46,611 nt of DNA from assembly GCF_000814475.1 (NCBI RefSeq), contig NZ_JSVC01000014.1, positions 1-46,611 of the forward strand, given 5' to 3'. The position numbers and the translations under genes are program-made. This document shows positions 14,294 through 23,344 of this stretch, in pieces. Positions within the stretch are counted from its first letter, which is position 1. Every line of letters begins with the position of its first letter. The notes under the pieces were generated by a model. That model saw only the letters and a list, made by a program, of their open reading frames with translations. It was not told the DNA's origin and did no database searches. This DNA comes from Flavihumibacter solisilvae (lineage in GTDB: Bacteria; Bacteroidota; Bacteroidia; Chitinophagales; Chitinophagaceae).

Positions 14294-15445
14294 CTATTTC
14301 CTTTTTTCTATCGGTACAAATTCCCTGTCATCGGGACCGATATAGTTAGCACCAGGCCTGATGATCTTTCCATCCTGTCGCTGTTCAATGATGTGAGCGC
14401 TCCAGCCGGTAACCCGCGAAATCACAAACAGCGGGGTGAACATCTTTGTAGGTATCTCCATCAGGTGATAGGCGACAGCTGAAAACCAGTCAAGGTTGGC
14501 GAACATTTTCTTTTCATTCCACATTACCGTTTCCAGTCTTTCTGCAATATTGTACAGCAGCATATCACCGGCTTCCTCAGATAGCTTCTTCGCAACTTTT
14601 TTAATAACTGCGTTCCTTGGGTCGGAAACCGTGTAAACAGGATGTCCAAAACCAATAATGACATCTTTATGGGCTAAGTGGTCTTTAATATCAGCTTCCG
14701 CTTCATCGGGCGATTTATAACCGCTTTGGATTTCGTATGCCACTTCGTTGGCCCCGCCATGCTTTGGTCCACGCAGTGCCCCAATGGCACCAGTAACCGC
14801 CGAATACAGATCCGAAGCTGTACCGGCAATAACACGGGCGGTGAAAGTGGAAGCATTGAACTCATGTTCCGCATACAGGTTCAATGAAACCTGCATGGCT
14901 TGTACCCATGACCGGGGAGGAACATTGCCGTGTAACAAATGCAGGAAATGTCCACCAATCGTTTCATCATCAGTTTCCACCTCTATTTCTTTCCCATTGG
15001 AACTATAATGATACCAGTAAAGAAGGGCGGAACTAAATGAAGCCAACAGTTTATCGGCGATTGCCCTGGCACCTCCTTCTGTGTGGTCTTCCTTTCCTGC
15101 CAGGCATCCAAGAAAAGATGTATAAGTGCGCAATACATCCATATGGTTTGCAGACGCCGGAATACTCCTGAGAATAGATTTCACGGGATCAGTCAGCCCC
15201 CTCAGCGTTTTCAATCTTTTTTTATAAGCATCGAGTTGCACCTGCGTGGGCAAATCACCATAAATCAATAAGTATGCGACTTCCTCAAATGCTGCCTTTT
15301 CAGCGAGGTCGGCAATATCGTATCCCCGGTAACGCAATTCTTTGCCATTTCTGCCCACAGTACAAAGAGCGGTATTTCCTGCAGCCACACCGGAAAGCGC
15401 TACATGTTTCTTCGGGGGAAATGATGATGAAGTGTTAGTTTCCAT
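14294..15445 (-). CDS. prpC: 2-methylcitrate synthase
   Basis: A 383-residue citrate synthase family protein that condenses propionyl-CoA with oxaloacetate. Family landmarks are [20 protein letters not shown], the catalytic-site segments GPKHGGANE and [14 protein letters not shown], and a C-terminal [15 protein letters not shown] place the start at the ATG at 15445 (METNTSSS), which overlaps the end of prpB by 11 bases. The ORF continues upstream to 15583, but those 46 residues lie in an antiphase overlap with prpB and look unlike protein. The overlap indicates translational coupling. Confidence 0.92.
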
Positions 15446-16358
15446 CGAATTTCGTTTTAAAGAGTTCATCCAGCTTTTGTTCATAGTCATGGTACCCGAT
15501 GGTCCTGTACAACTCTTCCCTGGTTTGCATGGTATCCAGTACATTTTGTTGCGTGCCGTCTTTCCTGATGTGTTCGTAAACATTCAGGGCAGCTTTATTG
15601 GCCGCACGGAATGCGGAGAGCGGATACAGGATCAATTCCACCCCGGCTGCTTTCAGTTCATCGACAGTGTACATTTTTATCATCCCGAACTCCGTTATAT
15701 TGGCAAGCACCGGGAGGCCGGTGGCATCCACGAATTTTTGATATGCGCCAAGGTCCGGTACGGCTTCAGCAAAGATGAAATCCGCCCCTGCCTCTTTGTA
15801 AGCTACGGCTCTTTCGAGTGTTTTTTCAAGTCCTTCAACCGCAAATGCATCTGTTCTAGCCCCGATCACGAAATTCCCGTCGGTGCGTGCGTCTACCGCA
15901 GATTTCAGGCGATCAACCATTTCTTCCCTGGTTACCACTTCTTTACCGGGACGGTGGCCACATCGCTTGGCACCGACCTGGTCTTCCATGTGAAGGGCAG
16001 CCGCTCCAGCCCTGATCAATGAACGGACCGTACGGGCAATATTGAAGGCGGAAGGCCCGAAACCAGTATCGACATCAACCATCAGCGGCAAATCACATAC
16101 ATTGGTAATGCGGTTAACGTCAGTCAATACGTCGTCCAGCGTTGTAATTCCAAGATCCGGAATACCTAACGAACCTGCTGCTACACCGCCTCCTGAAAGA
16201 TAGATAGCATTAAAACCTGCCTGCCGGGCGAGTAAGGCGTGTTGGGCGTTGATGGCACCGACGATCTGAAGTGGTTTTTCCTTTTCCATTGCCTGCCTGA
16301 ATCGAAGTCCAGCTGAACCTAAACTATCTTTCATATTCATACTGTTATTTGTATGCAT
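15435..16358 (-). CDS. prpB: methylisocitrate lyase
   Basis: A 307-residue isocitrate lyase/PEP mutase superfamily enzyme that cleaves 2-methylisocitrate to pyruvate and succinate. It carries the methylisocitrate lyase signature [12 protein letters not shown] with the catalytic Cys, the metal-binding DVDTGFG and MEDQ segments, and [11 protein letters not shown] later. It heads prpBCD. A PrpE or other propionyl-CoA activating gene is not in the window. The upstream spacer is shared with a divergent AraC gene at 16561, so that regulator may affect prp expression. In-frame ATGs at residues 7 and 9 are alternative starts. Confidence 0.93.
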
Positions 16359-16467
16359 CCCCTGGGGAAAATGCTATACACAAGATACATAACAATAAGT
16401 GCTGCCGTACAATCCGAAAACGGGGATTGGCTAACCATGGTGAGTTCAAGAACCAGGAGCGGTTAAA

Positions 16468-16535
16468 ATCAGTAAAATGTTTCCTTTTGTCCTTTAAAAG
16501 TTTTCATTTAGACCAGTAGTCGGGTAGTTAATTTG
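16468..16535 (+). promoter_or_regulatory. repeated operator/promoter module 1 (AraC gene at 16561)
   Basis: The sequence ATCAGTAAAATGTTTCCTTT at 16468-16487 recurs almost unchanged at 17421 and 18669. Here it is followed by GTTTTCATT at about 16503-16511 and a -7-like TTAATTTG at 16528-16535, which starts 60 bases after the module start, as in the other two copies. It lies between the divergent prpB and AraC genes. It probably carries the AraC binding site for autoregulation. Confidence 0.65.
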
Positions 16536-16560
16536 TAAATTCAATTAAGAGACTATCCAG

Positions 16561-17409
16561 GTGGGAAAGACATTCAATATACCCGACTTTTTAAAATACA
16601 TAAATATAAAAGGAACCGGTAATGACAGTCTCCAGGTAATTCACTATGACGAGTATGAGAATATTCTATTGAAATCTCCGCCTGTCAAAATCGATTTCTA
16701 TTTTTTAGCCATTAAACAAAATGTAGACATTCAGCCCCCGATAGAAGAAATGTCAGACTCGTATGTTTATTTGAGTGGCCCGGGTAACGCTATGGAATGG
16801 GAAATGACGGGACCGATCTCCGGTTACAGTATACTCATCAGCGAAAAGTTATTAGGTAAATTTGCCAGGGATTACAAGTTTATGGACTACAATAATCACG
16901 AAGCACTTTTTCTTAAGCATGATGAGAAGGTAGTTTTGTATGATTTATTTATTAAAGCACACCTGGAATTTGCAAAGAATCAAATTTCCAGGGACATAAT
17001 AGTTTCTTATTCAGCGCTCATACTCACCTATGCACAAGCTTTTTATGAACGTCAGTTTGAATCACGGAGTAAAATATACCACAAAGTGGTGGCAGATTTT
17101 TATGAACAATTACACGCTTACTTCCGCGATGAGGCATCTGTAAAAAACCTGCCATCCGTTGGATATTTTGCTGAAAAAGCCAACCTGTCGACAAACTACT
17201 TTGGAAACCTGGTGAAGCATTTCACAGGCAACTCGCCTATTGAGCATATACATCAACACATCATTCATATTGCCAAGAATAAACTACGCCTGACAAAATT
17301 ATCTGTCAACGAAATAGCCTACAGCCTGGGCTTTGATTACCCCACATACTTTACACGCTTTTTCCGTAAAGAAACCGGAATTACTCCTAAAGTATTCCGG
17401 AATCAGTAG
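16561..17409 (+). CDS. AraC family transcriptional regulator
   Basis: A 282-residue regulator beginning with GTG at 16561; the -7-like element at 16528 leaves a leader of about 20 bases, which supports this start. The N-terminal half is a cupin-like sensor and the C-terminal half a double HTH (LSVNEIAYSLGFDYPTYFTR, then TPKVFR). The linker holds AFYERQFESR, related to the RFYxRQFITR motif of the regulators at 2887 and 45152. Its promoter module is repeated in front of the next two genes, which makes it the obvious candidate to regulate both itself and those hydrolases. Confidence 0.88.
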   Translation: MGKTFNIPDFLKYINIKGTGNDSLQVIHYDEYENILLKSPPVKIDFYFLAIKQNVDIQPPIEEMSDSYVYLSGPGNAMEWEMTGPISGYSILISEKLLGKFARDYKFMDYNNHEALFLKHDEKVVLYDLFIKAHLEFAKNQISRDIIVSYSALILTYAQAFYERQFESRSKIYHKVVADFYEQLHAYFRDEASVKNLPSVGYFAEKANLSTNYFGNLVKHFTGNSPIEHIHQHIIHIAKNKLRLTKLSVNEIAYSLGFDYPTYFTRFFRKETGITPKVFRNQ

Positions 17410-17420
17410 CTACCTTAGCA

Positions 17421-17487
17421 ATCAGTAAAATGTTTCCTTTTTTGAGGGATTTGTTTTCGTTACCACTAGTGCGTGCGTTTAATTTTG
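17421..17487 (+). promoter_or_regulatory. repeated operator/promoter module 2 (hydrolase gene at 17605)
   Basis: ATCAGTAAAATGTTTCCTTT at 17421-17440 is identical to module 1 over 20 bases. It is followed by GATTTGTTTTCGTT, also found in module 3, and a perfect -7 box TAATTTTG at 17480-17487. The -7 box starts 59 bases after the module start. The leader to the ATG at 17605 is about 110 bases. Confidence 0.7.
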
Positions 17488-17604
17488 AATAAACGCAATT
17501 CATCGTAGTTGATCATCTGACAAGTTAATTCCCCCTTTTCAGGACACCCCCTTAATCTCGATATATGAAAACAATAAAAATCATTAACTACTAAATTATT
17601 TAAG

Positions 17605-18576
17605 ATGAAAGAATCAGTAAAATTCAAAAATCTTTCCTGGGATGTGGCAGCAGATATTTACTTCCCTCCTGATTTTAATGAAAGTAAAAAATACGCTGCG
17701 ATTATCAGTGCTCATCCAATTGGAAGCTGTAAAGAACAAACCTCCGGAAATGTATATGGCCAGGCGTTAGCTGATGCAGGTTTTGTAGTATTAGCCTTTG
17801 ACGCTTCTTTTCAAGGATCAAGTGGCGGCGAGCCCAGATTTATTGAGGACCCGACTTTAAGGGTAGAAGACTTCCGTTGTGCATGTGATTATTTGGTAAC
17901 ACTTCCTTATGTGGATGAAAAACGTATCGGTGTTTTAGGTATTTGCGGTGGCGGTGGCTATTCAATCAATGCTGCTATGACAGAACGCCGCATTAAGGCT
18001 GTTGGTACCGTTACAGGAGCGAATTATGGAAGGCTCTGGAGAGAAGCCTTTGGCAATTATGACCCTATTGGGGCACTGGAAAAAATTGCCGAACAACGGA
18101 CTGCTGAAGCCAGGGGAGAAAAATTGCGTGTAGATGACTTGCTTCCGCCTTCTGTTGAAGCAGGAAAAAAAGCAGGGATCAAAGACATCGATGTCTTAGA
18201 AGCTACAGACTATTACCGAACTCCAAGAGGACAAAAACCAAACGGGTTGAACCGTTCTTTATATTCACACAACAGTGCAGCAGTAGGTTGGGACGCTTTT
18301 TACCTGGCAGAGGTATTGCTAACACAACCTTTGATGGTGGTTATTGGTGACAAGCCGGGCGGTTTTGGGGCATATAGGGACGGATTGGAAATCATGAGAA
18401 GAGCAAAATCCGAAAAGAAAGAATTAGTAATCGCTGAAGGTTGGTCACATTACGATCTGTACGACAAACCGGAACCAGTAAAAATCGCCCTGGATAAATT
18501 AATTCCCTTCTTTAAAGAAAATCTTCAGTATGTGCCTGCACAACAAAAGAGCACAAAAGCTGAAGCAGTTGTTTAA
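17605..18576 (+). CDS. alpha/beta hydrolase, dienelactone-hydrolase-like (Cys nucleophile)
   Basis: A 323-residue cytoplasmic alpha/beta hydrolase without a signal peptide. The elbow reads LGICGGGGYS, so the nucleophile is a Cys, as in dienelactone hydrolase; the acid is probably the Asp in VVIGDKPGG and the base the His in EGWSHYDLYD. It is a paralog of the next gene and of the exported hydrolase at 37144. It ends in KSTKAEAVV, a tail also seen on the next two hydrolases. A strong intrinsic terminator follows at 18596. The substrate is unknown; lactones or thioesters would fit the Cys-type family, but this is inference. Confidence 0.88.
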   Translation: MKESVKFKNLSWDVAADIYFPPDFNESKKYAAIISAHPIGSCKEQTSGNVYGQALADAGFVVLAFDASFQGSSGGEPRFIEDPTLRVEDFRCACDYLVTLPYVDEKRIGVLGICGGGGYSINAAMTERRIKAVGTVTGANYGRLWREAFGNYDPIGALEKIAEQRTAEARGEKLRVDDLLPPSVEAGKKAGIKDIDVLEATDYYRTPRGQKPNGLNRSLYSHNSAAVGWDAFYLAEVLLTQPLMVVIGDKPGGFGAYRDGLEIMRRAKSEKKELVIAEGWSHYDLYDKPEPVKIALDKLIPFFKENLQYVPAQQKSTKAEAVV

Positions 18577-18595
18577 ACTTGAATGTGAAATGATG

Positions 18596-18623
18596 AAAGC
18601 CGGAGTAATACTCCGGCTTTTTT
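18596..18623 (+). terminator. intrinsic terminator after the hydrolase gene at 17605
   Basis: Stem AAAGCCGGAGT / ACTCCGGCTTT with a two-base loop, followed by further Ts. It separates this transcript from the next promoter module at 18669. Confidence 0.9.
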
Positions 18624-18668
18624 GTGCCAATGCCCTGCACACAAATAATAACATCATGAAGGATGTGA

Positions 18669-18736
18669 ATCCGTAAAATGTTTCCTTTTTAGAGTGATTT
18701 GTTTTCGTTTAACGGCAGTGTCTCATTTTAATTTTG
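18669..18736 (+). promoter_or_regulatory. repeated operator/promoter module 3 (hydrolase gene at 18778)
   Basis: ATCCGTAAAATGTTTCCTTT at 18669-18688 differs by one base from modules 1 and 2. The match to module 2 continues through GATTTGTTTTCGTT, and a perfect -7 box TAATTTTG lies at 18729-18736, 60 bases after the module start. The leader to the ATG at 18778 is about 35 bases. Confidence 0.7.
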
Positions 18737-18777
18737 ACTTGTGAAAAACAAGTCCTGACATTTTAAAATAAATTTTT

Positions 18778-19743
18778 ATGGCACAAAAAATCAACTTCAA
18801 AAACAGCAACAACGGAAACATAATTATATCGGCCGTTATTAATTTTCCTGAGGGATTTAAGGAAAATAAAAAATACCCAACTGTCATTGTCAGCCATCCC
18901 GGTGGAGGAGTCAAAGAGCAGGCATCAGGTTTGTATGCGAAAAAGTTAGCGGAACAAGGCTTTGTAACGATTGCTTATGATGCTTCTTACCAGGGCGAAA
19001 GCACGGGTGAACCCCGTCAACTGGAAAATCCATATATCAGAACAGAAGATGTAAGTGCGGCGATTGACTATATGATCGGGCTCCCATATGTGGACGTTGA
19101 AAATATCGGTGCAATGGGCATTTGCGCCGGTGCAGGTTACACAGCAAATGCGGCTATTAATGACCATCGCATCAAAGCAGTGGGAACCGTAAGTGCAGTT
19201 AACATCGGGTCAATGTTCCGCAATGGTTGGGATAACAATGTAAAAGATGCAGATGCCCTTCCTTACCTGGTAGCAGGTTCAAATGCAAGAACAAGCGATG
19301 CAGGTGGCGCTGCTATTGCCACCATACCGCTGGCACCCTTAAAAGAAGAAGATGCACCTAATGAAGAACTAAGGGAAGCCTGGGAATATTATCATACCGA
19401 TCGTTGCCAGTATCCGACAGCTCCCGGATTTGCGACAGCAAGAAGCCTTACACAGATTATTTCTTACGATGCTTATAACAAAGCAGAAGCATTTCTCACA
19501 CAGCCATTACAAATAATAGCAGGCAGTGTTGCAGGCAGCAAGTGGATGAGTGATGACCTGTTTAACCGGGTGGCAAGTAATGACAAAGATTTCCATATTG
19601 TTGAAGGCGCCAACCACATGTCGTTGTATGATGTAACAAAATATGTGGATGAAGCTGTTTCGGTTCTGGCTGATTTCTTTAATAAGAACCTGCAGAATGT
19701 TACAGCCAGTGCAAAGAGCGATAAAGCTGGAGCAGTTGCATAA
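18778..19743 (+). CDS. alpha/beta hydrolase, dienelactone-hydrolase-like (Cys nucleophile)
   Basis: A 321-residue paralog of the preceding gene, also cytoplasmic. It opens with SHPGGGVKEQASGLYA, a segment nearly repeated in the hydrolase at 37144. The elbow is MGICAGAGYT with Cys at the nucleophile position, and the catalytic His is probably in EGANHMSLYD. The tail KSDKAGAVA matches that of its neighbours. It has its own copy of the repeated promoter module, and the next hydrolase follows 51 bases after its stop, likely on the same transcript up to the terminator at 20892. Confidence 0.88.
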   Translation: MAQKINFKNSNNGNIIISAVINFPEGFKENKKYPTVIVSHPGGGVKEQASGLYAKKLAEQGFVTIAYDASYQGESTGEPRQLENPYIRTEDVSAAIDYMIGLPYVDVENIGAMGICAGAGYTANAAINDHRIKAVGTVSAVNIGSMFRNGWDNNVKDADALPYLVAGSNARTSDAGGAAIATIPLAPLKEEDAPNEELREAWEYYHTDRCQYPTAPGFATARSLTQIISYDAYNKAEAFLTQPLQIIAGSVAGSKWMSDDLFNRVASNDKDFHIVEGANHMSLYDVTKYVDEAVSVLADFFNKNLQNVTASAKSDKAGAVA

Positions 19744-19794: not shown

Positions 19795-20865
19795 ATGAAA
19801 AATAGCTCAAATCTATCTGGCATAGAAAGTCAATCTACCGGTAAAGCAAGAATATCTAAAGAAAATTTAGAAAAAGCAGTAGATCAGTTAAACGCTATTT
19901 CGCCTGAAGATTATGCAAAAATCCAGGGAATGGTAGCGGTAGTGCGAAGGGATTTCAGAAGTATCCTGCATAAAACACCGGATGACTACGGAATGACCAA
20001 CTGGGAGGACATTTATTTTCAGGCAGACGATGGCGTACCCTTAAACGGCTGGTACATTCCGGCAAAGGGTGGTGAAAGCGATAAACTGATAATCTTCAAT
20101 CATGCCCTGCCGATGTGCCGCGCAGGGTTCCAGGGACACCTGGGCGAACCCTGGAGTAATTTTGAAGCCGTTGAAATAGATTTTGTTATTCAAATGAAAC
20201 ATTTAACCGATGCCGGCTATAATGTATTGGCTTATGATATCCGAAATCACGGGCAAAGCGGCTCAGCCAATAACAATGTTTGCGGTATTGGATTATTGGA
20301 ATGGAGAGATTGTGTAGGTGTCAAAAAGTATGTGGACAATCACCCCAGGCTCGGTAAAATGAAAGTAGCCTTGTTCAGCCAGTGTATGGGTGGCTGTTCG
20401 CAATACGTAGCAATTGACAAACGACCTGACTTATTCCAGAATGTTTTATGTATGGCAAGTCCATTGGTCCCTTCTATGGGTTCAATCTACCAGGCATTTA
20501 CAGAATTGCTGGGAGTAAGTCAATACCTCGAACTTCTGGACCTGGAACTAGTGAAAGCAGGCGGTTTTACGAGAGCTGAAATGGACCCGAAGCTCTATAC
20601 TAAAAATATAAAAATGCCCTTGCTGATGTGGCAGGTAAAAGAAGATGCCTGGGTTAAAAACCCCGAAGATGCACAGGCCACTTTTGATAAAATACCCAGC
20701 AAGGAAAAAGAATTGCATTGGATCGAAGGCACTACACACCGTTTCCGGGATGGCTACAACTATTTCGGCAGAACCCCGGAAAAAGTTCTTGCTTTTTTCG
20801 ACAAGCATATGAAACAGGCAGAAACCAAATCTTCAAAAGCGGGTACACTTGTTTCGGAAAATTAA
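19795..20865 (+). CDS. alpha/beta hydrolase of a second subfamily (Cys nucleophile)
   Basis: A 356-residue alpha/beta hydrolase that differs from its two neighbours. An N-terminal helical extension of about 60 residues precedes the core, the elbow is FSQCMGGCSQ with Cys as likely nucleophile, an Asp is in QVKEDAW, and the His is in EGTTHRF. NHGQSG marks the strand-4 loop. It has no signal peptide. Although the fold details differ, it ends in KSSKAGTLVSEN, a version of the same tail as the two dienelactone-hydrolase-like neighbours. An intrinsic terminator follows 27 bases later. Confidence 0.85.
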   Translation: MKNSSNLSGIESQSTGKARISKENLEKAVDQLNAISPEDYAKIQGMVAVVRRDFRSILHKTPDDYGMTNWEDIYFQADDGVPLNGWYIPAKGGESDKLIIFNHALPMCRAGFQGHLGEPWSNFEAVEIDFVIQMKHLTDAGYNVLAYDIRNHGQSGSANNNVCGIGLLEWRDCVGVKKYVDNHPRLGKMKVALFSQCMGGCSQYVAIDKRPDLFQNVLCMASPLVPSMGSIYQAFTELLGVSQYLELLDLELVKAGGFTRAEMDPKLYTKNIKMPLLMWQVKEDAWVKNPEDAQATFDKIPSKEKELHWIEGTTHRFRDGYNYFGRTPEKVLAFFDKHMKQAETKSSKAGTLVSEN

Positions 20866-20891: not shown

Positions 20892-20923
20892 ATAAAAGCC
20901 GAAGCCTTTACTTCGGCTTTTAT
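20892..20923 (+). terminator. intrinsic terminator after the hydrolase gene at 19795
   Basis: Stem AAAAGCCGAAG / CTTCGGCTTTT around a six-base loop, followed by TATT. It closes the hydrolase transcript. Confidence 0.85.
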
Positions 20924-20948: not shown

Positions 20949-21587
20949 ATGGAAAAAAGAAAAGTCCTGGTGCTTGGTGCGGGCGGTGCCATTGCAAAGC
21001 ACGTAATCGAATTCCTAAAGAACGATAAGAATATTGAATTGACGCTATTCGCAAGAAATGCTGGCCATTTACAGGCCTACCATTCACTGGCCCAAATTAT
21101 TGAAGGCGATGTGTTAAATGATAATGACCTGAATGAAGCAATTAAAGGACAGGATCTTGTATATGCAAACCTCTCAGGTAACGTAGATAAGATGGCAAAG
21201 CAAATTGTAAATGCAATGTCAGCCGCCAATGTCAGGCGCCTGATATTTGTGACATCACTTGGTATTTACGATGAAGTTCCGGGTGCCTTTGGTAAATGGA
21301 ATAACAGGATGATCGGCTCTGCATTGACCACTTACAGAAAGGCGGCAGACATTATTGAAGGCTCTGCCCTGGATTACACCATCGTAAGACCTTCCTGGTT
21401 GACAGACAAAAACGAGGTCGAGTATGAAATCACACAAAAGGGTGAGCCATTTAAGGGAACTGAAGTCTCAAGGAAAGCTGTGGCGGCATACATTACCAGC
21501 ATTATCACACATCCTGAAAATGACAGGAAAGCAAGCGTAGGCGTAAATAAGCCCGGGGTATATGGCGACAAACCTGCATTCTACTAA
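20949..21587 (+). CDS. NAD(P)H-binding protein (NmrA/atypical SDR type)
   Basis: A 212-residue Rossmann-fold protein opening with VLVLGAGGAIAKHV, a GxGGxIxxH version of the dinucleotide-binding loop. LIFVTSLGIYD and YTIVRPSWLTDK correspond to the strand and loop segments of atypical SDRs such as flavin reductase/BLVRB-like proteins. The substrate is unknown. It is the first gene after the terminator at 20892 and runs 12 bases ahead of the RibD-like reductase gene, so the two form a likely redox pair. Confidence 0.87.
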   Translation: MEKRKVLVLGAGGAIAKHVIEFLKNDKNIELTLFARNAGHLQAYHSLAQIIEGDVLNDNDLNEAIKGQDLVYANLSGNVDKMAKQIVNAMSAANVRRLIFVTSLGIYDEVPGAFGKWNNRMIGSALTTYRKAADIIEGSALDYTIVRPSWLTDKNEVEYEITQKGEPFKGTEVSRKAVAAYITSIITHPENDRKASVGVNKPGVYGDKPAFY

Positions 21588-21599
21588 ACAAACATCGGT

Positions 21600-22331
21600 A
21601 TGAATGTAGAAAACAGACCTAAAGTCGTGTGCCATGTATTGGTCTCATCGGACGGAAAGATTTCAGGCAGGTTTTGGCGTAATTATAAAACACGCTTCGT
21701 AGATGAAGTATTTGAAAAGGCCAACAACAGCGATAATCCTTCTGCCTGGGCTTGCGGACCTATAACTACTGAACAGGTGTTCACTCAGTTTCACAAACCT
21801 ATATTGAACGAAAACACACCGACAGTTCCGGAAGGCGATTTTATAGCTGAAAACAATGCCCCGATATACTACGTGTCCATTGATGCGGACGGCAAGGTAG
21901 GCTGGAAAAAAAACAGTTTGCGTTATGCTAATCGTCAACATGCGCATATCATTGAAGTATTAACACTACAAGCTTCTAATGCTTATAAAGCTCACCTGCG
22001 TTCTGTCAATGTATCTTACATTATTTCCGGAACCGACCAACTTGATTTCAAAATTGCCTGCGAAAAATTGTATGCTTTCTTCAATATCAGAACACTTATA
22101 GTTTCAGGCGGGGGCAGCATCAACGGTTCCTTCCTGAATTCAGGAATTATTGATGAACTGAGTTTATTGATCTCCCCGGTAGCGGTTAAGGCCACAAATG
22201 GGCCTCCACTGTTTGAATACGGAAGGGTACTGCCAGATAATAAGCTTGCGGAATTTGATTTAAGAAATATTGAAAAGCTGGAAGGTGGTGGTGTTTGGTT
22301 GCAGTATACAACGTCAAAAAGACATCAGTGA
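21600..22331 (+). CDS. RibD C-terminal/dihydrofolate-reductase-like protein
   Basis: A 243-residue protein of the RibD_C family, which uses NADPH and has a dihydrofolate-reductase fold. It shows the opening VVCHVLVSSDGKISGRFW, a central ISGTDQLDFKIACEKL, the LIVSGGGSINGSFL cofactor loop and the DELSLLISPVA strand. No deaminase domain is present, so it is not the bifunctional riboflavin enzyme and may reduce another substrate. It follows an NAD(P)H-binding protein gene by 12 bases and converges with the GlxA-type regulator gene. Confidence 0.87.
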   Translation: MNVENRPKVVCHVLVSSDGKISGRFWRNYKTRFVDEVFEKANNSDNPSAWACGPITTEQVFTQFHKPILNENTPTVPEGDFIAENNAPIYYVSIDADGKVGWKKNSLRYANRQHAHIIEVLTLQASNAYKAHLRSVNVSYIISGTDQLDFKIACEKLYAFFNIRTLIVSGGGSINGSFLNSGIIDELSLLISPVAVKATNGPPLFEYGRVLPDNKLAEFDLRNIEKLEGGGVWLQYTTSKRHQ

Positions 22332-22345
22332 TACTCATGCCTCGC

Positions 22346-23344
22346 TTATACAGCCTGCAAACTTGCTTCCTTATTATACCGCGCCCTGTATTCCAGTGGC
22401 GACATGCCAGTAAGCTTTCTGAAAACCTCCCGAAATGCTTTAACATCTGAATACCCAACCTCGTACATAACCTCGTTAACGGTTTTGCGGGTCGTTTCAA
22501 GGGATTTTTTTGCGGATTCAATTTTTACCCGCTGCGCATACTCACCTGGTGTATTACCGGTAGCTTTTATAAACCTCCGGTCAAAATTCCGCCTGCCCAC
22601 AGAAAACCTGGAAGACAAATGCTCAAACGATACCTTTTCATCCAGCCTGCTTTCAATATAGGCTTGCGCTGCTTTTACCATTTCATCACCATGTAATTTC
22701 TGCCCGGTAAATATGGTGAACGGAGACTGGCTGTTCCGATCCAACTCTATCTGGCACATTTTGGAACAATAAATAGCTGTTTGCCTGTTATAATATTTCT
22801 CTACCAGGTAAATCAGCAGGTTCAGGAAAGAATACGCGCCACCATTGGTATATATTCCATCTTCGTCCGTGATCAAATGATCAGCCTGCACATTTACTTC
22901 GGGAAACATAGCCTTTAATGCACCTGCATTAGCCCAATGGGTGGAGCAATTTTTGCCATTCAGCAAACCCGACGAGGCAAGCATAAACGCACCGGAGCAC
23001 AGCGAAGCTACCTGCGCTCCTTTTCTATATTGCTGAATAATCCAATCAACCAGCAAATTATTTTCCTGTTTGAACTTCTGATCAGTATAAGCCACAGGAG
23101 GAATAATGATAAGATTGGTTTTGCCAATAGCCGAAATGTTGACCTGCGGTTTCAGTGTAAACACGCCATCATAAACTTCAGTTTGCTCTAAAGCGCCTGC
23201 TGATTCTATCCTGAACAATTCCTTCCCCTCGCGTTGCTTCCAATAACTATTCGCTGTTGCGAATACTTCAAATGTACTGGCGATACAGGTTACCGTGCTT
23301 AAAGTGCCTTTCCCTGCAGGAACGACTATGGTAATGTGTTTCAT
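22346..23344 (-). CDS. GlxA-type AraC regulator with DJ-1/PfpI domain
   Basis: A 332-residue regulator with an N-terminal DJ-1/PfpI-like domain (about 1-190) and a C-terminal AraC HTH pair (about 230-320). The elbow motif is ASLCSGAFML, keeping the Cys typical of the DJ-1 superfamily. The second HTH has VNEVMYEVGYSDVKAFREVF and ends in SPLEYR. GlxA-type regulators usually sense metabolites without catalysis. It is convergent with the RibD-like gene and divergent from the secreted protein gene at 23498, a plausible target. Confidence 0.9.
   Translation of the reverse strand: MKHITIVVPAGKGTLSTVTCIASTFEVFATANSYWKQREGKELFRIESAGALEQTEVYDGVFTLKPQVNISAIGKTNLIIIPPVAYTDQKFKQENNLLVDWIIQQYRKGAQVASLCSGAFMLASSGLLNGKNCSTHWANAGALKAMFPEVNVQADHLITDEDGIYTNGGAYSFLNLLIYLVEKYYNRQTAIYCSKMCQIELDRNSQSPFTIFTGQKLHGDEMVKAAQAYIESRLDEKVSFEHLSSRFSVGRRNFDRRFIKATGNTPGEYAQRVKIESAKKSLETTRKTVNEVMYEVGYSDVKAFREVFRKLTGMSPLEYRARYNKEASLQAV

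Follow-up and report, generated by a model that had tools for sequence, protein, structure and literature searches.

Genes of the locus

The window analysed here is a 46,611-nucleotide stretch of the Flavihumibacter solisilvae genome (contig NZ_JSVC01000014.1). Its forward strand encodes an AraC/XylS-family regulator of 282 amino acids with a GTG start (16561-17409), divergent from the methylisocitrate lyase gene prpB on the minus strand (15435-16358; 410 bits, above cutoff). Three alpha/beta hydrolase genes follow on the forward strand: hydrolase 1, similar to YcjY and PA2218 (17605-18576; PDB 5xb6, E 7e-67; 2hdw, E 4e-43), the YcjY-like hydrolase 2 (18778-19743), and, after a gap of about 50 bp, hydrolase 3 (19795-20865; Hydrolase_4). 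An NmrA-like NAD(P)H-binding protein that recurs as a member of this cassette is encoded next, also on the forward strand (20949-21587; NAD_binding_10). Hydrolases 1 and 2 are paralogues with 42% identity. The match to YcjY (5xb6) extends over 303 residues with 497 bits for hydrolase 2, and hydrolase 1 is more distant (229 bits); a GIC motif is common to the window query and to the YcjY (5xb6) and PA2218 (2hdw) chains. Each of the three hydrolases has a Cys that aligns with the nucleophile position, and this residue together with full-length similarity marks hydrolase 2 as YcjY-like. Judged by the alignment and by dienelactone-hydrolase chemistry, the aligned Cys of hydrolase 2 is presumably the nucleophile.

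A hairpin at 18595-18621 on the forward strand (12-bp stem, 3-base loop, -18.4 kcal/mol, z -4.4), accompanied by a T run, is a probable intrinsic terminator ending the hydrolase 1 transcript; it is absent from the list returned by a scan for consensus terminators. Since hairpin and T run lie before the third operator described below, hydrolases 1 and 2 are probably on separate transcripts. Hydrolase 3 is probably co-transcribed with hydrolase 2, and co-transcription of 20949-22331 with these two genes is uncertain because of a hairpin at 20892-20923. A search of 16300-19000 for RNA elements gave two weak Rfam matches over the terminator region, both below their gathering scores. An RNA-element reading was rejected, as these matches are sub-threshold and the sites lie upstream of the -7 elements.

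The regulator carries a C-terminal double helix-turn-helix, formed by HTH_18 (PF12833, residues 204-282; 72.6 bits) and HTH_AraC (PF00165, residues 242-281; 44.6 bits), both above cutoff. In its predicted structure (mean pLDDT 85.5), the DNA-binding domains of known AraC/XylS members align at 2.4-4.1 A rmsd. A cupin-type domain for ligand binding and dimerisation was looked for in the N-terminal region, which has no Pfam match; the predicted structure there is strand-rich over residues 24-94, followed by helices, and resembles the N-terminal domain of AraC only weakly (2arc_A, E 3.9e-3). In the second HTH, the segment F-D/E-YPTYF is identical in 19 of 19 aligned rows of the clade and different in three outgroup rows, which is weak and partly selected evidence because GFDYPTYF was itself a search pattern. 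The genome encodes 36 matches to this protein at E <= 0.001.

Three copies of a promoter-linked site

A first-pass annotation had pointed to three modules with almost the same 20-base start, one before araC and the others before separate hydrolase genes. The 20-mer ATCAGTAAAATGTTTCCTTT is indeed exact at 16468 and 17421 and carries one substitution at 18669, and the three copies precede araC, hydrolase 1 and hydrolase 2. With up to three mismatches allowed, it has zero matches in 100 dinucleotide shuffles of the window. The repeated start thus stands, but the conserved unit, as comparison with other genomes places it, is a 37-bp tandem site (about GTAAAATGTTTCATTnTTnnnGTnATnTGTTTTCnTn) and not the 20-mer. 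The stretch GATTTGTTTTCGTT, which had been noticed as common to the second and third copies, belongs to the second half of this site. From the start of the 20-mer to the start of the -7 element the distances are 60, 59 and 60 bp for copies 1, 2 and 3, as had been described; the -7 elements proposed there are exact TAnnTTTG in copies 2 and 3, and that of copy 1, TTAATTTG, is one base off.

Copy 1 (16472-16508, forward strand as are all three; matrix score 29.9, 16.0 bits with a sequence-only model) lies at araC's own promoter. Its first half-site is GTAAAATGTTTC (16472-16483), its second, weaker one is TTTAAAAGTTTT (16493-16504), and the -7 element (16528-16535) begins 56 bp from the start of the site. 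That this copy has a weaker second half and an imperfect -7 element counts against its reading as an operator; the same position is occupied before many, not all, orthologous araC genes. Overlapping TTAATTTG at 16529-16536 is TAATTTGT, which fits TAnnTTGY, a form that one study reports beside the sigma-A consensus in Flavobacterium psychrophilum (PMC9723704). Copy 2, at the hydrolase 1 promoter (17425-17461; matrix score 39.0, 21.6 bits), has half-sites at 17425-17436 and 17446-17457 and the -7 element TAATTTTG (17480-17487) 55 bp after the site start. The window carries AATCAGTA at the araC stop codon and once more, 19 bases further on, at this operator. Copy 3, at the hydrolase 2 promoter (18673-18709; matrix score 45.1), is at 25.3 bits the best match of the sequence-only model in the whole genome; its half-sites occupy 18673-18684 and 18694-18705, and the -7 element, again TAATTTTG (18729-18736), starts 56 bp after the site start.

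Architecture of the site and the promoter

The 37-bp site consists of two direct half-sites like GTAAWWTGTTTC with a period of 21 bp. When the first 11 bases of each of 30 sites were compared with shifted sequence, self-identity had its sole peak at offset 21 (8.4 of 11), other offsets from 14 to 26 giving 2.6-4.7, so that the two direct half-sites lie about two helical turns apart, as in a tandem operator of the AraC type. Mean pairwise identity among 31 sites is 0.88 in half-site 1 and 0.62 in half-site 2, 0.53 just before and 0.62 just after half-site 1; in the spacer it is 0.44, and in the stretch between site and -7 element 0.28. One variant, L045:8923, has half-sites 22 bp apart and lies before the first of two hydrolase-2 relatives. 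The proximal half-site has on average 1.3 mismatches at targets and 2.0 at araC's own promoter (Mann-Whitney P = 0.03), a stronger proximal half-site at targets that is a lead only, as the rows are related.

Promoter geometry was counted over 39 sites, three from the window and 36 from elsewhere (L051, near-identical to L050, was left out). TAnnTTTG starts exactly 55 or 56 bases from the site start in 35 of them; the four exceptions (window copy 1, L045:8923, L047:7908 and L115:490) carry near variants of the -7 element at the same distance or within two bases of it. The reported -33/-7 consensus is TTTG/TANNTTTG (PMC6847099). In the -33 stretch, TTG is found at six of the 39 sites and TTTG at three, and in 1794 ten-base stretches beside the sites the background frequencies are 10% and 4%; TTG is therefore near background there. 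With the first T of the -7 element numbered -12, the site extends from about -68 to about -32 and its proximal half-site mostly fills the place of the absent -33 element, abutting or overlapping a poor -33/-35 element as at class II promoters. The site and the spacing seen in the first-pass annotation are real, and the 21-bp period and the mostly absent -33 element, like the patchy distribution of the cassette described below, had gone unnoted.

Occurrence with AraC orthologues

Contigs were searched with the 16561-17409 protein, and the best 80 of 93 relatives were kept. The site lies beside the araC gene in all 17 loci at 37-65% identity (L035-L051), and orthologues in this range span seven Bacteroidota families. 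Of the 24 loci examined in the AraC clade, 23 have it. L052 (42% identity) is the one without: its best score is 7.1, and it is cut off upstream, its contig beginning 303 bp ahead of the open frame, while the congeneric locus L050 has its site some 930 bp upstream of araC. Among 62 loci with more distant AraC genes (L053-L114), no site scored 15 or more, the best reaching 14.7. Later orthologue searches covered 394 genomes of the window's family and 395 of the phylum at E <= 1e-50. They gave five further orthologues, found after the matrix was built, four of them in the family (G132, G250, G340 and G365) and one outside it (G677); each comes with the site, in eight copies altogether, and TA..TTTG stands at 55 or 56 in eight of eight.

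How the sites were found bears on the weight of their scores. The matrix was trained on 17 sites that had been found with a window-derived pattern, and the scores of these 17 are circular for that reason. The training set does not include the three sites of the window, which score 30-45, or the eight found later, which score 16-47. A pattern made from window copies 2 and 3 alone, with up to 10 mismatches, matches 12 of 18 orthologue loci, none of the 62 other AraC loci and one of 360 Markov-resampled sequences. One of the 18, L115, was fetched by such a pattern, in G388, a genome of the window's family that the later protein search also found. The best matrix score in 50 shuffles of the window is 16.0, and the weak sites L143, L145, L144:5912 and L046:7911 score 15.8-17.7, near this value. 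Given the shuffle best and two chance-like matches at 26-27 (see below), the weakest sites rest on position only. L045:8923, which scores only 11.2, was added by hand for its position.

A site lies directly upstream of araC in the window and in 14 other loci (L035-L039, L041, L042, L045-L047, G388, L141, L142 and L144). In five loci (L040, L043, L044, L143 and L145), no site can be recognised in the 250 bp ahead of araC, where the best score is -2.6, so autoregulation of araC is not universal. Upstream of araC in L143, the best match scores -3.6 yet has TAnnTTTG at 55; it is perhaps a decayed site. L048-L051 have the site ahead of a short-chain dehydrogenase gene, after which araC comes (Pfam was checked for L048 only).

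At the target sites the enzyme genes vary. Hydrolase-1 orthologues come first after the site in the window and in L035, L036, L040, L143, L144 and L145, hydrolase-2 relatives in the window and in L037, L038, L045, G388, L141 and L142, and hydrolase-3 orthologues in L042, L043, L044 and L047. A flavodoxin-like protein and then a short-chain dehydrogenase follow the site in L046, and in L041 the site is followed only by an araC copy. In L039 (9755-10049), an operator stands before a hydrolase-3 remnant that matches only over the first 65 residues. Orthologues of the NAD(P)H-binding gene occur in eight of the 23 loci. Among 20 loci examined, 10 have a target operator that begins one base ahead of the araC stop codon (L035:2148, L036:8846, L040:8846, L042:8858, L043:8858, L044:8858, L046:8846, L047:8852, L143 and L145), so that the stop codon TAA forms part of the half-site.

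The distribution of the cassette is patchy. The AraC orthologue was found in six of the 394 family genomes, the window's included, and in none of the other nine sampled members of the window's genus; another search of the genus gave none of 14. The tree mixes families, rows from Myroides and Proteiniphilum sitting with those from Chitinophagaceae, which suggests transfer. In two cases the cassette lies among conjugation or mobilisation genes. In Myroides (L035:1-5976) it is placed among DUF4133 and DUF4134 genes, which we take to be the conjugation genes traF and traE, and in G250 (L141) it adjoins MobC-like and relaxase genes.

Searches of the genome and the phylum

A search of the genome for more copies had been proposed, hundreds of which would have spoken against a regulatory element. 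The 5,407,881 bases of the genome (75 contigs) hold the window's three 20-mers and only one other match, with three mismatches, at 20192 on the minus strand within a coding gene; by our own estimate about 0.3 such matches are expected by chance. The small regulon that had been predicted is accordingly confined to the local cluster in this genome, with no further 20-mer in promoter context. A sequence-only model built from 27 outside sites gave 10 genomic matches at E <= 10, three of which are the window copies. The other seven have a best matrix score of 11.6, and none has TAnnTTTG at 55 or 56. As one of them, on contig C14 (E 0.037), outranks window copy 1 (E 0.09), the sequence-only model alone cannot separate the weakest true copy. 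A genome-wide regulon was rejected, no further copy with promoter context having been found in the 5.4-Mb genome. Elsewhere in it (C23:46390-48169), another AraC-family gene (28% identity) stands directly before a paralogue of the hydrolases (37%; one stop was noted near it). This pair, which the sequence-only operator model did not match, may be a parallel switch that uses a different code.

A motif-first search of the 395 phylum genomes returned, besides the window, two matches, in G491 and G770 (scores 26.9 and 26.4). Both fall within coding sequence of the opposite strand, and their 3-kb loci contain none of the cassette genes. The G491 match (C5:95078-95110, L133) runs antisense where a response-regulator gene meets a histidine-kinase-like one; at +56 it has TAATTTTT and then a G, which differs from the -7 consensus by a single base. 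The G491 genome has no AraC orthologue at E <= 1e-50. Lacking the AraC and lying inside coding sequence, the two matches were rejected as true operators and taken as chance; they make clear that a matrix score of 26 is by itself no proof. In a phylum sample that appears to be the same one, the AraC orthologue is confined at E <= 1e-50 to the window's genome and G677, and the weak site of G677 scored below the threshold of the motif-first search.

Proposed mechanism and alternatives

In the first-pass annotation, the repeated element was suggested to be where the local AraC protein binds, and the comparison, through co-occurrence with the orthologues and the fixed distance to the -7 element, supports it as a candidate. 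The modules are read as tandem operators of the 16561-17409 protein in which the proximal half-site would replace the -33 element and polymerase would be recruited in class II fashion, a reading given a probability of roughly 0.84. At the level of sequence, the site, its repeat period, its constant placement before the -7 element and its association with the AraC clade are established by these comparisons; we infer from them binding and activation by the regulator, activation from geometry alone. The protein would occupy both half-sites through its two DNA-binding domains, which fit one face of the helix because the half-sites are 21 bp, or two helical turns, apart. It would probably sense a small molecule through its N-terminal domain. 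Once bound, it would recruit sigma-A polymerase from the -33 position, where it most likely substitutes for the -33 element, since the proximal half-site sits there and most of the promoters have no TTTG or TTG. The predicted transcripts would carry hydrolase 1 alone and hydrolases 2 and 3 together, perhaps with 20949-22331, and araC would here be autoregulated through its weaker site. The enzymes may hydrolyse small-molecule esters or lactones, perhaps in detoxification.

The same protein might bind the same site and act chiefly as a repressor over the -33 region, to be freed by a ligand. The proximal half-site covers the -33 position and repression is possible for some AraC-family proteins; however, promoters that have a good -7 element and mostly no -33 element fit the need for an activator, and neither the -7 element nor the start region is covered by the site, which makes a repressor unlikely. 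Far less probable is that a different regulator binds the site. The second AraC-family protein of the window (22346-23344) is nearby and has an AraC-type DNA-binding domain, yet it has no match at E <= 1e-20 in the 23 site-bearing loci, all of which contain an orthologue of the 16561-17409 protein, though they were chosen by it. A regulator encoded elsewhere in the site-bearing genomes would be a variant of this alternative.

The copies could also be leftovers of a tandem duplication of hydrolase and promoter that have no present function. That the paralogous hydrolases 1 and 2 have the most similar copies agrees with such an origin, but one copy stands before an unrelated gene, araC, the half-sites were kept while flanks and spacers diverged, and across families the site is conserved before unrelated genes, among them those for short-chain dehydrogenases and a flavodoxin-like protein. 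This explanation can practically be dismissed, and activation by the neighbouring AraC protein from tandem operators is preferred.

Relation to known systems

E. coli AraC is an activator at araBAD I1-I2, where direct half-sites 21 bp apart bring the proximal one to the -35 region. The sites described here share the tandem direct half-sites, the 21-bp distance and the proximal position at -35/-33; they differ in an unrelated half-site sequence, in the Bacteroidota -7/-33 promoter and in the hydrolase enzymes that they precede. In Pseudomonas, CdhR is reported as an AraC-family class I activator with half-sites GGTCGC and a 15-bp spacer (PMC5806209), and MtlR as an AraC-family activator whose site of at least 37 bp has two similar 15-bp blocks upstream of the -35 element (PMC4514859). 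CdhR has a direct repeat with the same 21-bp period and MtlR a direct-repeat site of comparable length (at least 37 bp, against 37 bp here), and both differ in motif and ligand. The switch is therefore of an ordinary, known type; its motif, regulon and cassette were not found described in the literature searched, judged by title and the start of the abstract. The half-site GTAAAATGTTTC occurred there only in papers unrelated by title.

AraC-type genes are numerous in Bacteroidota, and literature searches on AraC binding sites in Bacteroidetes yielded little. What is gained here is an exact predicted operator, its geometry relative to a promoter of the unusual -7/-33 type, and roughly two dozen naturally occurring variants. 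The hydrolases, NAD(P)-binding proteins and flavodoxins may handle esters, lactones and reactive small molecules, though this is a guess. The odds are even that the locus represents a self-contained and transferable Bacteroidota switch. In it, an AraC activator, often with its target operator overlapping its own stop codon, would be linked to exchangeable enzymes (flavodoxin-like proteins, short-chain dehydrogenases and hydrolases, YcjY-like or other) and spread partly by conjugative elements, and one operator code, taking the place of the -33 element, would hold throughout the phylum. Once its inducer is identified, the operator may provide an inducible promoter part for Bacteroidota.
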